A stretch of 34,822 nt of DNA. Origin: a bacterium (GTDB lineage Bacteria; Elusimicrobiota; Elusimicrobia; UBA1565; UBA9628). Of the stretch, positions 1-19,221 are shown piece after piece. The stretch's first letter is position 1. The number at the start of each line of letters is the position of its first letter. The stretch spans positions 1 through 34,822 of the forward strand of contig JAJXTZ010000007.1 of assembly GCA_021783355.1 (NCBI GenBank). Direction: 5' to 3'. Both the position numbers and the translations under genes were made by a program. The notes under the pieces were generated by a model. That model was not told the DNA's origin and did no database searches. It saw only the letters and a program-made list of their open reading frames with translations.

Positions 1-363
1 CGCCGCCGCCGTGAGCGCGAGCTTGCCCGCCAGCGTGGCCGTCAGGCCGGAGATGAACTCGGAAATGGAGCCCCAAACGCCTCCGGCGCCGGTCTCCGCC
101 GCGCCCAGCATCCCGGCGCCGCCGGAATCCGCCGCGCCCAAAAGCCCCGCCTCGCCGGCCTCCGCGGCGCTGCCGGCCGCGCTGGCGGCCGCGCGCGCCA
201 CCGTGCCGCCCGTCGCGCCGGAGAAGGACCCGGCGCCGCCGCGGGCGCCGCTCCACGCCGCGCCGCCCTTCTTGCGCTCCTTGTCCTTCTTCTTCAAATC
301 CGGGATGTCCGCCGCCGGAGCGCCCTGGTTGGCTTTCAAGACGTCGTCGTTTTCATTAGCCAT
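1..363 (-). CDS. Partial Gly/Ala-rich membrane-associated protein (N-terminus only), probable member of the neighbouring array
   Basis: Minus-strand ATG at 363 reads MANENDDVLKANQGAPAADIPDLKKKDKERKKGGAAWSGARGGAGSFSGATGG...KLALTAAA. It is open to the window edge, with the same layout as the 379-1914 and 2112-3755 products (charged N-terminus, Gly/Ala/Ser-rich stretch, hydrophobic segment). Confidence 0.6.
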   Translation of the reverse strand, partial: MANENDDVLKANQGAPAADIPDLKKKDKERKKGGAAWSGARGGAGSFSGATGGTVARAAASAAGSAAEAGEAGLLGAADSGGAGMLGAAETGAGGVWGSISEFISGLTATLAGKLALTAAA

Positions 364-378
364 TGTCGGTCTCCCGCG

Positions 379-1914
379 TCAATTCATCGCCGCCGCGCCG
401 CCGGTCACCGCGCTCGACAGAAGGAAATTAGTCGCCGTCTCGACGCTGTTCCCCGCCGCGAATTGAGTGATCGTCTGCTCGCTGAAACTCCCGTTCGCCG
501 CATATGCGAACACGGCGAGGGCGGCGCCCACCGCGGTCAGGATGCCGCCTTGCAGCTTCTGGCCGTACTTGGTCATGATCGTCACGCCGATGCCGGCGAC
601 GATCGCGCCGATGGCCATCAGGGCCATCATCAACGCGTAGACCAAGCCGGCGCCGACGAACGACCACTGGAAATACTTCGCGGCCGCCAAGAACAGCGAG
701 ATGGCCGAGGCCGCCATCAGCAGCATCTTCGCGGTGTCCAGCAGGCCCTGCCACGGGGTGGCATTGTGCCCGTTGTTGTTGGCGGTGTTCTGGCAGGAGC
801 CGTTGGCGTCCATGTACTGGCCCGTGCCGCAGGTCTGCGCGGCGCCGCCGCCGCTGAGAGGGCCGCCGGTGGCGCCGGGGTTGTTCGGCGTGGTCCCGTC
901 CGTCGCGCCGACGCCGGCGCCGCTGGCCACGCCGGGGCCCGCGATGACGCTGCCCTGGCCGGGGTTGTTGTCGAAGGCCGCGCCCGCGGTCTCCGCGGCG
1001 TTCTCCGCCTGGCCGGGGGCCGTCGCCTGATGGGAGAGCGCCGCCGCGTTGTCCAGCTGGCGCCGCGCGAAGCCGCGCGCGTTGGAATGGCCCGCGTTGC
1101 GGGGGGACGCGCGGGACATGGCCGGGTGGGCGTTGCGGCGGAAGGACGCGATGGAGCCGCTCTGGGCCTTGGGCAGGTCCGCGCCCAGGTTGGACATGCC
1201 CGCGAAATTGCGATTGATGCCCCCGGAGAGCCCGGAGCCGCCGCTCAGTCCCGAGCCGCCGAAGGCGGAGCTCATCGAGCCGAACTTGCCCGGCTTGAGC
1301 CCCTTCTTAAGCAGGCCCTCGCCGCCGTTGAGGGCGGTGTCGCCCGGCTGCGCCTTATTATCGGAGGCCTTGGACGCGGCCGCCTCCTTGGCGGCCTCCT
1401 CCTGCTGGGCCTTCGCGTCGGCCGCCTCCTGCGCCTTGCGCGCGGCCTCAGCCTCGGCCAGTTTCTTGGCGCGCTCCGCGGGAGTCAGCCCGTCCAGGCT
1501 GCCCTCCACGTAGCCCAGAGAGTTGGGCATGGCGTTGCTGCCCTTGATGACGCTGGAGGTGTCGGAATAGGACTTCGGAGCGGAATCGAAGAGCTTCTTG
1601 GCCGCGGGCTTGGCAACGGCGGCGGCGCCGCCGCCCGAGACAATCTGGCCGTACTGCCAGGCCCCGGCGCTCACGCCGGCGGTGACCAGGACGGCGATCA
1701 GGACCTTGCTCAGTGACATCCCCACGCCGACGGCCGCCCCGCCGCCCGTGCCGGCGGCCGAGCCGCCCAGCAGGTTCAGGCCGGAGCCGCCGCCGCTCCC
1801 TGAACCGCCGAGCCAGCCGCCCGCTCCGCCGCGACGGCGCTTGTTCCGCTCCTTGCCGACTTTCGCCAGCTTGAAGGTGGGGACCTCGGCCGTCGCGGAA
1901 TTCTGAGTGTCCAT
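379..1914 (-). CDS. Gly/Ala-rich multi-TM protein of unknown family (array member)
   Basis: ORF 379-1992. ATG at 1914 (MDTQNSATAEV...) is preferred because AGCGGAG lies just upstream; the longer ORF start falls inside the promoter. C-terminus has ATPWQGLLDTAKMLLMAAS...MTKYGQKLQGGILTAVGAALAVFAYA. Confidence 0.8.
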   Translation of the reverse strand: MDTQNSATAEVPTFKLAKVGKERNKRRRGGAGGWLGGSGSGGGSGLNLLGGSAAGTGGGAAVGVGMSLSKVLIAVLVTAGVSAGAWQYGQIVSGGGAAAVAKPAAKKLFDSAPKSYSDTSSVIKGSNAMPNSLGYVEGSLDGLTPAERAKKLAEAEAARKAQEAADAKAQQEEAAKEAAASKASDNKAQPGDTALNGGEGLLKKGLKPGKFGSMSSAFGGSGLSGGSGLSGGINRNFAGMSNLGADLPKAQSGSIASFRRNAHPAMSRASPRNAGHSNARGFARRQLDNAAALSHQATAPGQAENAAETAGAAFDNNPGQGSVIAGPGVASGAGVGATDGTTPNNPGATGGPLSGGGAAQTCGTGQYMDANGSCQNTANNNGHNATPWQGLLDTAKMLLMAASAISLFLAAAKYFQWSFVGAGLVYALMMALMAIGAIVAGIGVTIMTKYGQKLQGGILTAVGAALAVFAYAANGSFSEQTITQFAAGNSVETATNFLLSSAVTGGAAAMN

Positions 1915-1979: not shown

Positions 1980-2008
1980 AGTTTAGCCCCACCCCCGTCC
2001 TTTGTCAA
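1980..2008 (-). promoter_or_regulatory. Sigma70-like promoter for the 379-1914 gene
   Basis: Minus strand: TTGACA (2008-2003), 17-nt spacer, TAAACT (1985-1980). Confidence 0.7.
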
Positions 2009-2023
2009 GAAAACGGGGTGCAA

Positions 2024-2039
2024 TTACCGTTTTTTTACC
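2024..2039 (-). promoter_or_regulatory. Putative regulator-binding direct repeat GGTAA-N6-GGTAA
   Basis: Plus strand ttacc at 2024-2028 and 2035-2039 (11-bp period), 15 nt upstream of TTGACA. Same geometry at 4964-4979. Confidence 0.5.
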
Positions 2040-2111: not shown

Positions 2112-3755
2112 TCAAGCGGCCGGATCGACCGCCGTCTTCTTCAAGGCCACCATCGTCTTCAGCGCCGTCTGGGACGGGAACTCCCGGTAGCCGAACCAAT
2201 TCGCGTCCGGCGGCTTGCCGTTGTTGAACTGGGTGGACGGATAGGATTTCGGCGGCTTGAGCATGGTCCCGGCAAGGCCCACCAAGGCCGCGCCGCCGCC
2301 CAAAAGGACGTAAGGGTTCATCCCAAACATATCGGCACTCTCACCGCCCACCGCCGTCCCGTTGGCTCCGCCTCCGGTATAGCTCGCCGGCGCCATCTCC
2401 GTCCCCGTCGAACTCGCGGCGAATTGGCCGTTTGTGGTAGTACCCATAATCACCTTCCCGTCCTTGGCGGCATGCGTATTGTCGCTCGCCGACATCATGG
2501 ACAAGACCGCAGCGGCGATGATGCCGATGCCCGCCGCCGCCAGGACCCCGCCCTGGAGCTTCTGGCCGTAGGGCCCCGAGGTGATCTTCTGGCCCAGCGC
2601 GACGATGGCCGCGCCCATGGCCATGACAATCGCGCCGAGGGCGTAGCGGGCCCACGGGATGGTGACCTTGCCCATCAGCATCATGATCAAGGTCGCGGCC
2701 ATCATCAACCCCTGGGCGGTGTTGATCGCGTTCTGCCACGGGGTCACGTTCTTCATCGGCGGCGTGGGCGGGGCCTTGATGTCGGTCTTGTCGTTGGCGC
2801 CGTTGGGCAGGCTGGTGGGCTGGGCCGCGCCGGTCGCGGCGCCGGGGCCGCCCATGCCGGGGGCGCCGGCCTGGGGACCGGTGATGCCCGCGTCGATCGG
2901 AGCGGACCCGTCGTAGGTGCGCCCGGCCGAGAACGACGACAGCGCTCCGTGCTGGTCGCCCAACGCGCCGAAGGCCTGCGCCCTCGCGCCGTTGAAGCGC
3001 CGGGCGGCGATGCCGCGGCCGTGGGCCAAGCTGGCCCGGCCGTGGCGGTTCATCGCGGACAGAGAGCCGCGAGTCCCGTTCTCGGCCGCGGCGCCGCCGG
3101 GGGAGAAGCCATTGGAAGGCGCCACCGAGGCCGTCGCGCCACCGCCCCCGCCGCCGCCTTCGCCCACGCCGGAGGTCAGGGTCCCGATCTTGCGCACGTG
3201 TAGGAGGCCCTTAGGCATGGTCCGCTCGGCGCCGTTGGACGCGTTGATCTGGCCGCTGGAGGCGTTCTCCGCGACACGAGCAGCGTCGGCCGCGGTCCGG
3301 TCCGTGAGAGCCGCCGCGCCGGCGCCACCGGCCGGGACGGCCGCGAGGGACGCGTTGCCCTGCGCCAGCATGTTGAGCGACTTGGAGGTCCCGTCGGCCG
3401 GAGCGGGCGCCGCGGAGGACGCGCCGGAGGCGCTCTTGGGACGGGGCGCGAAGAGCGAGAGATTGCCCGCGCCGGAATTGTCGGCCGACGGGCCGAAGAG
3501 GCGATAGCCGACCACCCCGACGCCGCCCGCCACGGTGGTCCCCGCCACGATCAAGGCCAGGAGACCGGCCTTGGTCGCCAAAAGGCCGCCGCTGGCCGCG
3601 GCGCCGCCCAGGCCGCCGCCGCCCAGGCCGCCCGCGCCGATCCCGCCGGCTCCGCCCCCGCCGCCGAACAGGCGGGCGAGAAGGCCGCCGGCGGCCTTCT
3701 TGTCCCGGCCGGGCTCTTTGTTGACCTCGGGCTTGATGTCGGGCATCTGAGACAT
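2112..3755 (-). CDS. Gly/Ala-rich multi-TM protein of unknown family (array member)
   Basis: 547-aa ORF; KNVTPWQNAINTAQGLMMAATL...GPYGQKLQGGVLAAAGIGIIAAAVLSM parallels the 379-1914 protein; poly-Gly N-terminal region followed by a hydrophobic segment. Confidence 0.8.
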   Translation of the reverse strand: MSQMPDIKPEVNKEPGRDKKAAGGLLARLFGGGGGAGGIGAGGLGGGGLGGAAASGGLLATKAGLLALIVAGTTVAGGVGVVGYRLFGPSADNSGAGNLSLFAPRPKSASGASSAAPAPADGTSKSLNMLAQGNASLAAVPAGGAGAAALTDRTAADAARVAENASSGQINASNGAERTMPKGLLHVRKIGTLTSGVGEGGGGGGGATASVAPSNGFSPGGAAAENGTRGSLSAMNRHGRASLAHGRGIAARRFNGARAQAFGALGDQHGALSSFSAGRTYDGSAPIDAGITGPQAGAPGMGGPGAATGAAQPTSLPNGANDKTDIKAPPTPPMKNVTPWQNAINTAQGLMMAATLIMMLMGKVTIPWARYALGAIVMAMGAAIVALGQKITSGPYGQKLQGGVLAAAGIGIIAAAVLSMMSASDNTHAAKDGKVIMGTTTNGQFAASSTGTEMAPASYTGGGANGTAVGGESADMFGMNPYVLLGGGAALVGLAGTMLKPPKSYPSTQFNNGKPPDANWFGYREFPSQTALKTMVALKKTAVDPAA

Positions 3756-3786: not shown

Positions 3787-4905
3787 TCAGCGGACGATGC
3801 TGTTGTTCAAATTCTGCATGTACTGCTGCTGCTGCTGCGACTGCTGCTGCTGCTGTTGCTGCTGCTGCGAGTACATCTGCCCCGCCTGGGAGGCCGCCAT
3901 CATGATCGCCATGCCCGCCGGCCCGCCCACCACGCCGCCGACGATGGTCCCCACCATGGTCAGGCCCATCTGCACCATCGCCGCGTTGTTGTTGGACGAA
4001 GTCGGGACCGGGGTGGCGGGCGGCGCCTTCAGCTTCTTGGCGTCGATCGCGGGGTCGCCGAGCTTGAGATTCTTGGGCGCGGAGGTGTCCATGGCCGCGT
4101 ACGCGCCGCCCAGGGCCTGGCCGCCGGGGCCGATGGAGTTGCTGCGGCCCTTGGAGCCGTCGAACAGGCGGTTGAGTTGACTGGCGGCGGCGTCGGCGCT
4201 GAGCGAGCGCGCGGCCGCCTGGGAGGCCTTGTCCGCATGCTTGAGCGCGCTCAGGCCGCCGTTGCCCGCCAGGGGGCCGCCTCCGTCGTCGTGAAGACCC
4301 TGCGTGGCGGCCGAGCCCACCTGGGCGTTGTGCGCGCCGAAAGCCCCCACGCCGCCCACGGACGCGGACGCGCTGAAGCCGCCGGACGCGGCGCCCAGGC
4401 CCGAGAGGCCGTTGCCGGACAGGTGCGGCATGGTGAAGCCGCGCACGGCCTTCTCGCCGCCCCACCCCGAGGCGTCCTTGCGCGCCACGGCCTTCAGCTG
4501 CTGAGCCAGGCTGGCGGACGCCGAACCGGACGCGGAGCCGGCCGCGCGCCCGGCGAGGGCGCCGTCCTTGACTCCGCCCGCGGCGTCCGGCGGTTGGTAC
4601 AGCATGGACGGAGAGAACGCGTCGGCGCCGGTCTTTTTCGCCGCGCCCATCGAGAGGTCCAAGGCCCCTCCCGGCGCGCCGTTGGGATTGTACGGGGAGT
4701 CCAGGCTCTGCTCGGCGCTGGAATCGGTGGCGGGTCCGCCCACGCTCACGTGGGTGGAGCCGATTTGGGTGTCCATCGTGGGGACGAGCAGCCACACGGC
4801 GGTCAGGCCGAACCCGCCCAGGATGGCCAACCAATATTTCTTATACGGGTCCTCCGCGTTGCCCACGGACAATTGCGGCGCCAGCGGAGTCAAAGTGACG
4901 CTCAT
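3787..4905 (-). CDS. Gly/Ala/Ser-rich protein with N-terminal TM and C-terminal poly-Gln
   Basis: 372-aa ORF MSVTLTPLAPQLSVGNAEDPYKKYWLAILGGFGLTAVWLLVP... ending QMYSQQQQQQQQQSQQQQQYMQNLNNSIVR; promoter upstream. Confidence 0.8.
   Translation of the reverse strand: MSVTLTPLAPQLSVGNAEDPYKKYWLAILGGFGLTAVWLLVPTMDTQIGSTHVSVGGPATDSSAEQSLDSPYNPNGAPGGALDLSMGAAKKTGADAFSPSMLYQPPDAAGGVKDGALAGRAAGSASGSASASLAQQLKAVARKDASGWGGEKAVRGFTMPHLSGNGLSGLGAASGGFSASASVGGVGAFGAHNAQVGSAATQGLHDDGGGPLAGNGGLSALKHADKASQAAARSLSADAAASQLNRLFDGSKGRSNSIGPGGQALGGAYAAMDTSAPKNLKLGDPAIDAKKLKAPPATPVPTSSNNNAAMVQMGLTMVGTIVGGVVGGPAGMAIMMAASQAGQMYSQQQQQQQQQSQQQQQYMQNLNNSIVR
3823..3869. repeat. CTG/CAG trinucleotide microsatellite encoding poly-Gln
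   Basis: (CTG)5 CGA (CTG)5 TTG (CTG)3 CGA on the plus strand; CAG (Gln) runs with one Ser interruption on the coding strand. Confidence 0.9.
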
Positions 4906-4918
4906 AGGCCTCGGACGA

Positions 4919-4948
4919 AGTGTAGCCCCCGCCTCCGAAATCTGTCAA
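4919..4948 (-). promoter_or_regulatory. Sigma70-like promoter for the 3787-4905 gene
   Basis: Minus strand: TTGACA (4948-4943), 18-nt spacer, TACACT (4924-4919), ATG 13 nt downstream. Confidence 0.7.
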
Positions 4949-4963
4949 GAGAAGGCCCCCTCT

Positions 4964-4979
4964 TTACCATGTTTTTACC
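4964..4979 (-). promoter_or_regulatory. Putative regulator-binding direct repeat GGTAA-N6-GGTAA
   Basis: ttacc at 4964-4968 and 4975-4979 (11-bp period), 15 nt upstream of TTGACA, as at 2024-2039. Confidence 0.5.
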
Positions 4980-7251: not shown

Positions 7252-7986
7252 ATGAGGTTCCAACTTACTCTGCCAGATGCTCCGGCGAAAGCGCTGTTTT
7301 GTCTTGCGCTAAGTATTGCGGCCGCGCCAATCGCTGTCAATGCCAGTGGCGAGACCTTATCATCCTTTAACAAAGACAAATTTGACAATGCTTCACGGCA
7401 AGCGAAACGCAATCATGACTCACTGGTCGATTTCTCAAAGCTGATTAAATTGGTTATCGACAGAGGCCAGGAGCACATCATCCCTGCGAATCTCGCCTCG
7501 GCAATCGGCTCCCCCACAGGAGTTCCCATCCTCACGAAGGACGTGCAGATCGAAGATCGGATATGCACAATCGCCTACTCGAGCGAAACCACCACGACGG
7601 ACCTCGAGAAACACCCGATTCCTGACTGCGTGTACCTAAGCTCGCGCCGCAAATCGGGGCGATCTCTCGTTTCCAGATATCTCCGTATTGATCTTAATGG
7701 GAAGCTGCAAAAGGTATTCGTTCTCAATGGAACATCCGATGCGCAAGGAAGACCGCTATCGGCCACAAAATCCTATCCCGACGTTGACTCGCCGGAAGTC
7801 CGCAAGGAGTTCCAGGCGGAGATGGACTTCTGGCTGAAGGAGTGGCTGCCGAAGCAGGATGGACTCAAGGCCAAGCCGATCCGCACGGGATCGACAACGA
7901 AAGCTTCGACCGGGAAGGCGCGCCGGACCGCATCGGACAATCACATGAAACCACGCATTTTCGCGGCGAACGAGGACAGACCATGA
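7252..7986 (+). CDS. Secreted hypothetical protein, paralogue of the 8896-9456 product
   Basis: MRFQLTLPDAPAKALFCLALSIAAAPIAVNAS signal-like N-terminus; C-terminal SRYLRIDLNGKLQKVFVLNGTSDAQGR...SPEVRKEFQAEMDFWLKEWLPKQ matches the downstream paralogue. Confidence 0.7.
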   Translation: MRFQLTLPDAPAKALFCLALSIAAAPIAVNASGETLSSFNKDKFDNASRQAKRNHDSLVDFSKLIKLVIDRGQEHIIPANLASAIGSPTGVPILTKDVQIEDRICTIAYSSETTTTDLEKHPIPDCVYLSSRRKSGRSLVSRYLRIDLNGKLQKVFVLNGTSDAQGRPLSATKSYPDVDSPEVRKEFQAEMDFWLKEWLPKQDGLKAKPIRTGSTTKASTGKARRTASDNHMKPRIFAANEDRP

Positions 7987-9466: not shown

Positions 9467-11227
9467 TCAGATCGTCGGGCCCGGGGGCGGGGTCTGCGGA
9501 CCCGCCGCCGGCGGCGCGGGCGGCGGCGGCGCCGGCGGATGAGCCTTGGACGCGGCGGCCGGGATCGGCAGGGGGTCCGGAGGCGTCAGGGACTGCGCCA
9601 GCGGGCCGGTGGCCAGCGCGCGCGGGGCCTTGCCGTACTCGGCGAAGATCGCGACGATCTCGTCGTAGTCCAGCTCCTCGCGCTTGAGGAGCTCCGCCGC
9701 GAAACGGTCCAGGATCTCCTCCTCGGAGCGCAGGGTCTCCTCCACTTCCTTCATGGCGCGCATCAGGATCCGCTGCGTGTCGTCGTTGAGCTTCTTCTTG
9801 AGCTCGTCGGAGAGCTGCGTGGCCGGGATCTGCGTGAAGTCGCCGACCAGGCCGCTGTCGCCCATCCCCAAGCGCCAGACCATGTCATGCGCGCGCGTCA
9901 TCGCCACCGCGAAGTCCGAGCTGACCCCCACGGTCGTGGAGCCGATCTTGACCTTCTCGCCGCAGTAGCCGCCGAGGAACATCTTGATCGTCGCGAAGAC
10001 CGACTCGCGGTCGATCACGTGGAACTCCTCGCGCGAGACCGGGTGCACGACGCCCAGCGTGTCTCCGCGCTCGATGATCGAGGCCTTGAACACATCGTAG
10101 AGCGGATGACAGAGGTAGGTGATGATCAGATGGCCCGCCTCGTGATAGGCCTTCATCTGCCGTTCCTTCGGCGTCATCGAGACCCGGTGCGCGACCCCCA
10201 ACTCGATGCGCTCGATGGCCGCGGAGACGTCCTTGTAGGTGATCATCTCCCGGCTGTCGCGCGCGGCGATCAGCGCCGCCTCCTTGAGGATGTTCTCGAT
10301 CTGCGCCGGGGACTTATAGATGGCTTTGCGCGCCAGGCGGCCCATGTCCACGGCCGGGTCCATCTTGATCTTCTTCGCGTAGTACTCGAAGATGCGCTGG
10401 CGCTCGGGCAGGTTGGGCAGGTCGATGCGGATCTTGCGGTCGAAGCGGCCGGGGCGCGTCAGCGCCGGGTCCAGCACGCTTTCCTCCATGTTCATCGCCC
10501 CGATGACCACGACCGGCACGTCGGAGTCCGTCAGGCCGTCCATCTCCACGAGCAATTGGTTCAGCGTGGAGTTTCCCTCCTGCCCGCCGCCGAACGCGTC
10601 GTAGACCACCCGCGTGCGGCCCAAGACCTCGATCTCGTCGATGAAGATGATGCAGGCCCCGTAGGCGCGCGCGTACTGCCGCGCCTGACTGAACAGCTTG
10701 CGCACGCGGCTGGCCCCGACCCCGACGAAGATCTCCACGAATTCCGAGCCCGACGTGGACAGGAACGGCACTCCCGCCTCGGTCGCGATCGCCTTGGCCA
10801 GCATCGTCTTGCCGCAGCCGGGAGGGCCGATCATCAGCAGGCCGTGCAGGATCTTGCCGCCCACGCGCTTGAGCATGGCGCGGTCCTTCAGGAGCTGGAC
10901 CACCTCCCAGGCCTCGTGCTTGGCCTCCTCGTTGCCGATCACATCCGTGAAGCGGACGTTGACCGCGGCGTTGTCAATCTTGGACTTGCGGAACATCGCG
11001 AAGCCCCCGCCGTACTGCAGCAGATACAGGAAACCGACGAAGACCAGCGTCTGCAGGATCCCCCACGGCAGCGAGGCCACGTTGATCCCAATGATGTAGT
11101 TGCGGACGCTGGCCTCCATCCCGGACATGTACCAGATCGGGATGAGGATGGCGACGGCCATCCCCACGACCACGACGATGGGCAGCCACCAGCGCTGCCA
11201 GAAAAGCCTCAGTTTAGCCCAGAACAT
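9467..11227 (-). CDS. FtsH-like membrane AAA+ zinc metalloprotease with Pro-rich C-terminal tail
   Basis: N-terminal TMs; GPPGCGKT Walker [13 protein letters not shown] Walker [21 protein letters not shown] zinc motif; downstream Asp in [13 protein letters not shown]; tail [21 protein letters not shown]. Confidence 0.9.
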
Positions 11228-14198: not shown

Positions 14199-14888
14199 TC
14201 AGTTCGGCTCTTCCGGCGAGATCAGCCCCATCTCGATGCCCTTGACGACGGCCTCGGTGCGGTTGCTGACCTCGAGCTTTTGGAAGATCGCGTTCAAGTG
14301 GTTCTTGATTGTCTTGACGGAGCAGTCCATCTTGGCGGCGATCTCCTTGTTCGAGAGGCCGGAGCCCAGGAGGACCAGCACGCGGATCTCGGTCTTGGTG
14401 AGGGCCACGGGCGAGGTGCCCTCGCCCGAGGACATCTGACGCAGCCCCTGAAGGAGCTTTCCCATCACCTGCTGCGGGATCATCACGCCGTCGTTGGCGA
14501 AGGCCTTCAGGGCGTTGACCAGCTCGGCCGCCGGGAGCATCTTGGACAGGTAGCCGTTGGCGCCGGCCTGGATGGACTCCATCACGTGCGCCTCGTCCTC
14601 GTAGCTGGACAGGATGAGGACGTTGGTGTTCGGCAGCTCCTTGCGGATCTGGCGCGTCGCGGAGACGCCGTCCAGGTGCGGGAGCTTGATGTCCATCAAG
14701 ATCACGTCGGGCCGGAGCTTCTTGGCCATGCGGATGACTTCCTGGCCGTCCGCGGCCTCCCCGATGACCTCCACGGACTTCTCGTTCTCCAGCAGATCCT
14801 TGATGCCTTCCCGGAACAGGGTCTGGTCGTCGGCGATGAGGACCTTTACCCTCTTCTTCGGCTTCGGCGCAGCCTTGGTCGCAGCCAT
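14199..14888 (-). CDS. NarL/FixJ-type response regulator (REC-LuxR HTH)
   Basis: VLIADDQTLFREGI...DVILMDIKLPHLDG; HTH TKTEIRVLVLLGSGLSNKEIAAKMDCSVKTIKNHLNAIFQKLEVSNRTEAV. Confidence 0.95.
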   Translation of the reverse strand: MAATKAAPKPKKRVKVLIADDQTLFREGIKDLLENEKSVEVIGEAADGQEVIRMAKKLRPDVILMDIKLPHLDGVSATRQIRKELPNTNVLILSSYEDEAHVMESIQAGANGYLSKMLPAAELVNALKAFANDGVMIPQQVMGKLLQGLRQMSSGEGTSPVALTKTEIRVLVLLGSGLSNKEIAAKMDCSVKTIKNHLNAIFQKLEVSNRTEAVVKGIEMGLISPEEPN

Positions 14889-18420: not shown

Positions 18421-19221
18421 TCATCTCCTCAGTTCCCCGCCGGGCGGGACCAGCTTGTAGCCGACGCAGGGGATCGTCGTGATGAAGCGCGCCGCGCCGC
18501 CGAGCTTCTCGCGCAGGCGCCGCACGTGGACGTCCACGGTTCGCGGCGAGCCGAAATAGTTGTAGCCCCAGACGCGCTCGATCAGATAGGGGCGGGACAG
18601 CACGCGGTTGGCGGAGCTCAGGAACACGTACAGGAGGTCCAGCTCCTTGGAGGTCAGAGGAACGCGCTTGCCGCTGACGTGCAGCGTGTAGCTGGTGAGA
18701 TTGAGCTCGATCTCCCCCATCTTGATCAGCTCCTCGGGGGCGCTGGCCTGCGTGCGGCGCAGGACGGCCTTGACGCGCGCCAGGCACTCGGCGGCGTCCC
18801 AGTTCATCGACAGGCACTCGTCGGCGCCGGCCTGAAAGAACGCCAGGCGCAGGGACACGCGGTCCTTGGCGGGCGCGGGCGCGGTCGCGGCCTGCGCCGG
18901 GCCGCCGCGCCCGAAGAGCGCGTACGCGTGCTTGGACGGGGCCGCCGCCGCCGCGGGCTGGTCGGCGTGCTCCACGAGGGCCACGATCGGCAGCTGCTTG
19001 GCCGGCCCCTTGGTGCGCAGCGCCTTCACGAACTCGACGCCGTCCTCGTCGACGAGCTTCTGCCCGACGAGGAGGAGGTCGCAGCCCCGATGCGCCAGGA
19101 GCCCGTGGACCTCCTTGGCGCGCTGGGCCACGGTGACCGACATCCCGGCGCCCTGCAGGGCCTCCAGGATGACGGCCGCGCGATTGGGCTCGCGCGAGGC
19201 GTAGACGACGTTGACGCGCAT
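18421..19221 (-). CDS. OmpR/PhoB-type winged-helix regulator with degenerate receiver
   Basis: C-terminus VPLTSKELDLLYVFLSSANRVLSRPYLIERVWGYNYFGSPRTVDVHVRRLREKLGGAARFITTIPCVGYKLV; receiver has DLLLVGQKLVDEDG in place of the usual phospho-Asp motif. Confidence 0.92.
   Translation of the reverse strand: MRVNVVYASREPNRAAVILEALQGAGMSVTVAQRAKEVHGLLAHRGCDLLLVGQKLVDEDGVEFVKALRTKGPAKQLPIVALVEHADQPAAAAAPSKHAYALFGRGGPAQAATAPAPAKDRVSLRLAFFQAGADECLSMNWDAAECLARVKAVLRRTQASAPEELIKMGEIELNLTSYTLHVSGKRVPLTSKELDLLYVFLSSANRVLSRPYLIERVWGYNYFGSPRTVDVHVRRLREKLGGAARFITTIPCVGYKLVPPGGELRR

Follow-up and report, generated by a model that had tools for sequence, protein, structure and literature searches.

The window, by which we mean the whole stretch of 34,822 nucleotides analysed here, carries two promoters on its minus strand that are preceded by the same direct repeat. 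We call these site A and site B, and the genes behind them gene A and gene B. The relevant features are:

4975-4979, minus strand: distal half-site GGTAA of site A, followed by AAA; GTAAAAA varies little or not at all among 25 aligned promoters
4964-4968, minus strand: proximal half-site GGTAA of site A, with a period of 11 bp from the distal one
4943-4948, minus strand: -35 hexamer TTGACA of promoter A, 15 nt past the proximal half-site
4919-4924, minus strand: -10 hexamer TACACT of promoter A, with a spacer of 18 and GGGGC just before it
3787-4905, minus strand: gene A, putatively controlled, coding for a membrane-anchored, Ala/Gly/Ser-rich protein of 372 aa with a C-terminal Gln tract
2112-3755, minus strand: second gene after promoter A, 31 bp downstream of gene A in the same cluster
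2024-2039, minus strand: sister element GGTAAAAAAACGGTAA (site B), profile E-value 8.7e-15
1980-2008, minus strand: promoter B, TTGACA-N17-TAAACT
379-1914, minus strand: gene B (MDTQNSATAEVPTFKLAKVGKE..), a putatively controlled membrane protein
7311-7372, minus strand: tentative weak site before the adjoining TPR-Ser/Thr kinase gene, TGTTAAAGGATGATAA-N16-TTGACA-N17-AATACT, score 27.1
18421-19221, minus strand: candidate regulator, an OmpR/PhoB-family response regulator with Gly replacing the phospho-acceptor Asp

Read on the minus strand from 4979 to 4919, site A is GGTAAAAACATGGTAAAGAGGGGGCCTTCTCTTGACA-N18-TACACT, that is, GGTAA-N6-GGTAA-N15-TTGACA-N18-TACACT. The preliminary description had proposed this promoter architecture and was exact in every detail. 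It had also called this a second copy of the architecture seen at 1980-2039. Site B reads GGTAA-N6-GGTAA-N15-TTGACA-N17-TAAACT there, so the 11-bp period and the 15-nt distance are identical, while the spacer (17 and 18) and the -10 hexamer (TAAACT and TACACT) differ between the two.

The ATG of gene A (4903-4905) begins 13 nt after the -10 hexamer, which means that the transcript would be nearly leaderless, with a 5' leader of about 5-7 nt. This 13-nt gap (4903-4924) is kept across the genus. The second gene of the unit (2112-3755) has no element of its own. Neither gene A nor gene B matched a Pfam family, and the Gln tract that gave gene A the name polyQ gene is incidental, as it is missing from most orthologues. 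The gene block upstream of gene A includes an FtsH-like AAA/M41 protease (9467-11227), which lies directly upstream in several relatives.

The repeat is rare. With at most one mismatch, GGTAA-N6-GGTAA was found three times in the window against an expected 0.16, and the two matches without any mismatch are sites A and B. These are also the only exact pairs in the 2.7 Mb genome, where the reversed-pattern control gave one match, and again the only ones when TTGACA is required at 15 nt. Near-matches at C138, C157 and C136 were set aside, since they resemble chance or coding sequence. For the weak site at 7311-7372, the reversed pattern returned 0 and 1 matches scoring at least 24 per 400 kb.

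Orthologues of gene A were found in 25 of 38 related genomes, with 42-53% identity over most of the genus. All 19 same-family orthologues with enough upstream DNA carry the element, and so do 10 more from further genera. In the 19 same-family sequences its conserved columns spell GTAAAAA and rGTAA on either side of two unconstrained bases, and nothing comparably conserved follows until the T and C right before TTGACA. Pairwise identity is mostly 0.8-1.0 in the element columns compared with about 0.25-0.5 in the upstream flank. In other species of the genus, sites A and B are each matched by a separate orthologous site, and the site of the polyQ gene turns up again in about ten genera of the family. 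The two sites therefore diverged long ago, and we rejected a recent duplication. The preliminary description had argued for functional constraint over recent duplication and had proposed an alignment of orthologous upstream regions as a check; the alignment supports it, with the element conserved while the flank diverges.

It had also named orthologues that keep the promoter and lose the repeats as evidence against the idea. We observed such promoters only outside the family: three orthologues in the neighbouring family f2 (L029, L031 and L033) lack the element and keep both TTGACA and TACACT. This means that the element was either gained in the source genome's family or lost outside it. The f2 promoters thus date the element and leave its function within the family unrefuted. 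An exact pattern search across 56 genomes of the order gave hits in 36 of 44 genomes of the source family and in 2 of 12 from other families, while the reversed pattern gave none. No promoter-linked site was found in about 780 kb from other families. Two related f2 genomes (L237 in G034 and L238 in G023) carry GTAAATnTnTCGTAAAT-N15-TTGACA-N17-AATACT before apparently exported genes, possibly an outlying form of the same box.

The geometry of the element is strict. A consensus of rGTAAAAAnnCGGTAA describes the 78 distinct sites, and in a scan that permitted 12-18 nt to the -35 hexamer the distance was 15 or 16 nt in 76 of them (39 and 37, respectively), and 14 and 17 nt once each. An independent plain-pattern scan permitting 10-22 nt found 58 sites in gene orientation, all at 14-16 nt, and no site in the inverted orientation. 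The two half-sites are direct and head-to-tail, GTAA-N7-GTAA, with a period of 11 bp. The distal half is GTAAA, and the base following the proximal GTAA varies. In genus g19, which has at most nine exact sites per genome, both halves read GGTAAAAA.

The preliminary description did not include the larger regulon that lies behind the element. We built a model from the sequences of the 25 aligned promoters alone and searched the genome with it. Both window sites were recovered with E-values of about 1e-14, and a third site with 3e-7. The genome's complete set of 25 TTGACA-N17/18-TANACT promoters, picked blind to their upstream sequence, served as an independent sample (the reversed control for this pattern gave 0 matches). 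Six of these strong promoters have the element 15-17 nt upstream, with scores of 16-30; for the remaining 19 the score is at most -3. The distribution is bimodal, and 2000 shuffles gave a mean count of 0.001. The following units of the genome carry the element:

units A and B: the genes described above
unit C: L089, MDQAKIPTLKD..
unit D: L099, MTSKFLKRNKD..
L085: an exported TPR-Ser/Thr kinase (Pfam)
L094: a small exported Cys/Gly-rich protein

In an f2 genome (L126), relatives of A, B, D and C lie side by side in a single contiguous cluster, so the source family has the box at several promoters of one cluster. In other genera the element precedes the same classes of genes, namely A, B, C, D, TPR-kinases and small lipoproteins. 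Outside the cluster, sites occur about once per 200 kb or more rarely (800 kb sampled in two relatives). Judged from these sequences, the sites mark a predicted regulon of four units of one cluster, exported TPR-Ser/Thr kinases and small Cys-rich lipoproteins. The gene truncated at the left end of the window (1-363; L120) appears to run on into contig C45 of the same assembly, and this contig holds unit C. A separate observation concerns the promoter L090 (G000:C49:16123-16152), TTGACA-GTTGACCGTACGGTCAAC-TATACT, where a perfect palindrome fills the spacer. The gene behind it looks TetR-type by eye, which suggests a self-repressing operator.

The element is quite probably a tandem 11-bp box for a dimeric winged-helix activator of the OmpR/PhoB type. 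This reading rests on the strict 11-bp head-to-tail repeat on one helix face, the fixed placement and the intact core promoter. A dimer would bind head-to-tail to the two GGTAA(AAA) half-sites, which are 11 bp, or one helical turn, apart, and would be centred about 58-60 bp upstream of the predicted transcription start. The fixed distance and orientation would place it upstream of a good sigma70-type promoter, where it may contact RNA polymerase in much the manner of a class I activator. Binding and activation at the box would then turn on the regulon, comprising one cluster of membrane-protein genes along with those for exported TPR-Ser/Thr kinases and small lipoproteins; together the products may form an envelope system of the family.

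The same A-rich sequence could be read as an UP element, that is, phased A-tracts (GGTAAAAA) to which the alpha subunits of RNA polymerase bind with their C-terminal domains, which would strengthen the promoter constitutively with no dedicated regulator. The A-tracts, phased by roughly one helical turn and located between about -52 and -66, are plausible alpha-CTD targets, and genus g19 even has the tract in both halves. However, the G and T of GGTAA are conserved equally with the As, and the proximal half is often without an A-tract. The element is also rare among the sampled promoters of two relatives, and the genes it serves are a coherent set. Since 19 of the 25 strong promoters are clearly without it and the scores fall into two groups, we rejected a general UP element as the main reading and consider it unlikely.

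A regulator of another class, or another local one, might instead bind the repeat. The example at hand is the NarL/VraR-type response regulator at 14199-14888, which adjoins the cluster, is encoded in the same signalling block, and keeps the phospho-acceptor motif DVILMDIKLP in a sequence related to VraR/NarL. NarL-type sites are mostly short heptamers in an inverted arrangement, whereas OmpR/PhoB proteins typically use strict head-to-tail repeats of 11 bp, so this assignment is quite improbable. The bound protein might also limit expression and not activate it, as OmpR-type regulators can repress and the core promoter is near enough to consensus to work unaided. However, the box lies wholly upstream of the -35 hexamer and never on the core promoter, and its fixed distance and orientation are those of an activator position, which makes a repressor box very unlikely. 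An OmpR/PhoB class for the binding protein is the probable one.

Which protein of this class would bind the box is a question of its own. The OmpR-type DNA-binding domain has 17 matches in the genome, and we tentatively put forward the 18421-19221 protein as the leading candidate, with the chances somewhat against it. It is the only OmpR-type regulator of the genome with its exact recognition helix. Its best PDB match over the DNA-binding half is 8hih, with the recognition helices aligned, so the helix is GlnR-like; the chain label of this entry says only 'transcriptional regulatory protein', and we take it to be GlnR. The candidate is an atypical response regulator that lacks the phospho-acceptor Asp: the position is G, A or S throughout the order, and it is Gly (position 53) in 18 of 18 sequences of a phylum-wide alignment, in which a 28-residue stretch of the DNA-binding domain is invariant. 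The named relatives of the candidate all come from metagenome-assembled genomes of Elusimicrobia/Elusimicrobiota or from bins labelled only as bacterial, which places the window in this phylum. Of the family genomes searched, only G001 and G002 yielded no copy of the gene. Its absence from G002 is probably due to the assembly edge, since the neighbouring kinase gene begins at contig base 16.

Some observations complicate this assignment. The candidate occurs phylum-wide, whereas the element was not found on that scale and is nearly confined to one family of uncultured Elusimicrobiota, so either its set of target genes has changed or the box belongs to a different regulator. Other OmpR-type regulators are common to the source genome and to G048, which has at least seven sites and only six such regulators. 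Moreover, this recognition-helix motif is shared by regulators whose half-sites differ to some extent, which means that the helix does not identify the box. Autoregulation failed as a route to naming the regulator, because no element was found upstream of the response-regulator genes examined in the source genome and in g19. A wider reading, which we hold to be rather doubtful, is that one family co-opted a phylum-wide Elusimicrobiota regulator, not open to phosphorylation by the usual route, for the control of an undescribed envelope system via the fixed tandem box. The system would comprise the Ala/Gly-rich membrane proteins beside the Tad-like and FtsH-like gene block, together with exported Ser/Thr kinases and lipoproteins.

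To our knowledge, gene regulation in Elusimicrobiota is barely known except in a few host-associated members, and a literature search of limited scope found no description of such a motif in this phylum. The conserved regulatory element is real and, as far as this search shows, new for Elusimicrobiota, although its kind is already known. The motif is sharply defined, allows the regulon to be predicted throughout the family's genomes and comes with a few regulators to test. It also ties unannotated membrane proteins, kinases and lipoproteins into one co-regulated system, a first step towards the function of that system.

Several published boxes of OmpR-family regulators resemble the element in form, which speaks for the OmpR/PhoB reading. 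A pho box usually replaces the -35 hexamer, whereas the Elusimicrobiota box lies upstream of an intact TTGACA at a fixed distance of 15-16 nt. The 11-bp direct repeat and the GTnA core are shared with both pho and WalR boxes: the E. coli phoE pho box TGTAATAAAAGCGTAAAC is GTAA-N7-GTAA (PMC10294691), and the WalR box is TGTWAH-N5-TGTWAH (PMC9210968). The GlnR box of actinomycetes, gTnAc-n6-GaAAc, has the same 5+6+5 direct repeat, and its M. smegmatis form, t/gTAAC-n6-Gc/aAAC, is close to ours (PMC10704036). GlnR is not phosphorylated at its Asp (PMC10704036) and, like the 8hih protein matched by our candidate, belongs to the OmpR family. However, GlnR half-sites end in C and ours in A, and GlnR promoters often have at least two boxes and serve nitrogen genes. 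Since our sites precede membrane, kinase and lipoprotein genes and not those of nitrogen assimilation, we do not class the element as a GlnR box. ChxR and HP1043 are OmpR/PhoB-family proteins without the phospho-acceptor Asp that are active without phosphorylation (PMC3960148); they are comparable to the 18421-19221 candidate only, whose link to the box is putative. By eye, regulators L064 and L069 of the source genome have CpxR-like helices. The CpxR box, GTAAA-N4-8-GTAAA, is a direct repeat like ours and has a half-site that matches our distal GTAAA, the P. aeruginosa mexA site GTAAACCTAATGTAAA also has N6, and CpxR likewise controls envelope genes (PMC5063474). CpxR boxes reportedly work in both orientations and at variable spacing, whereas the orientation and distance of the Elusimicrobiota box are fixed.
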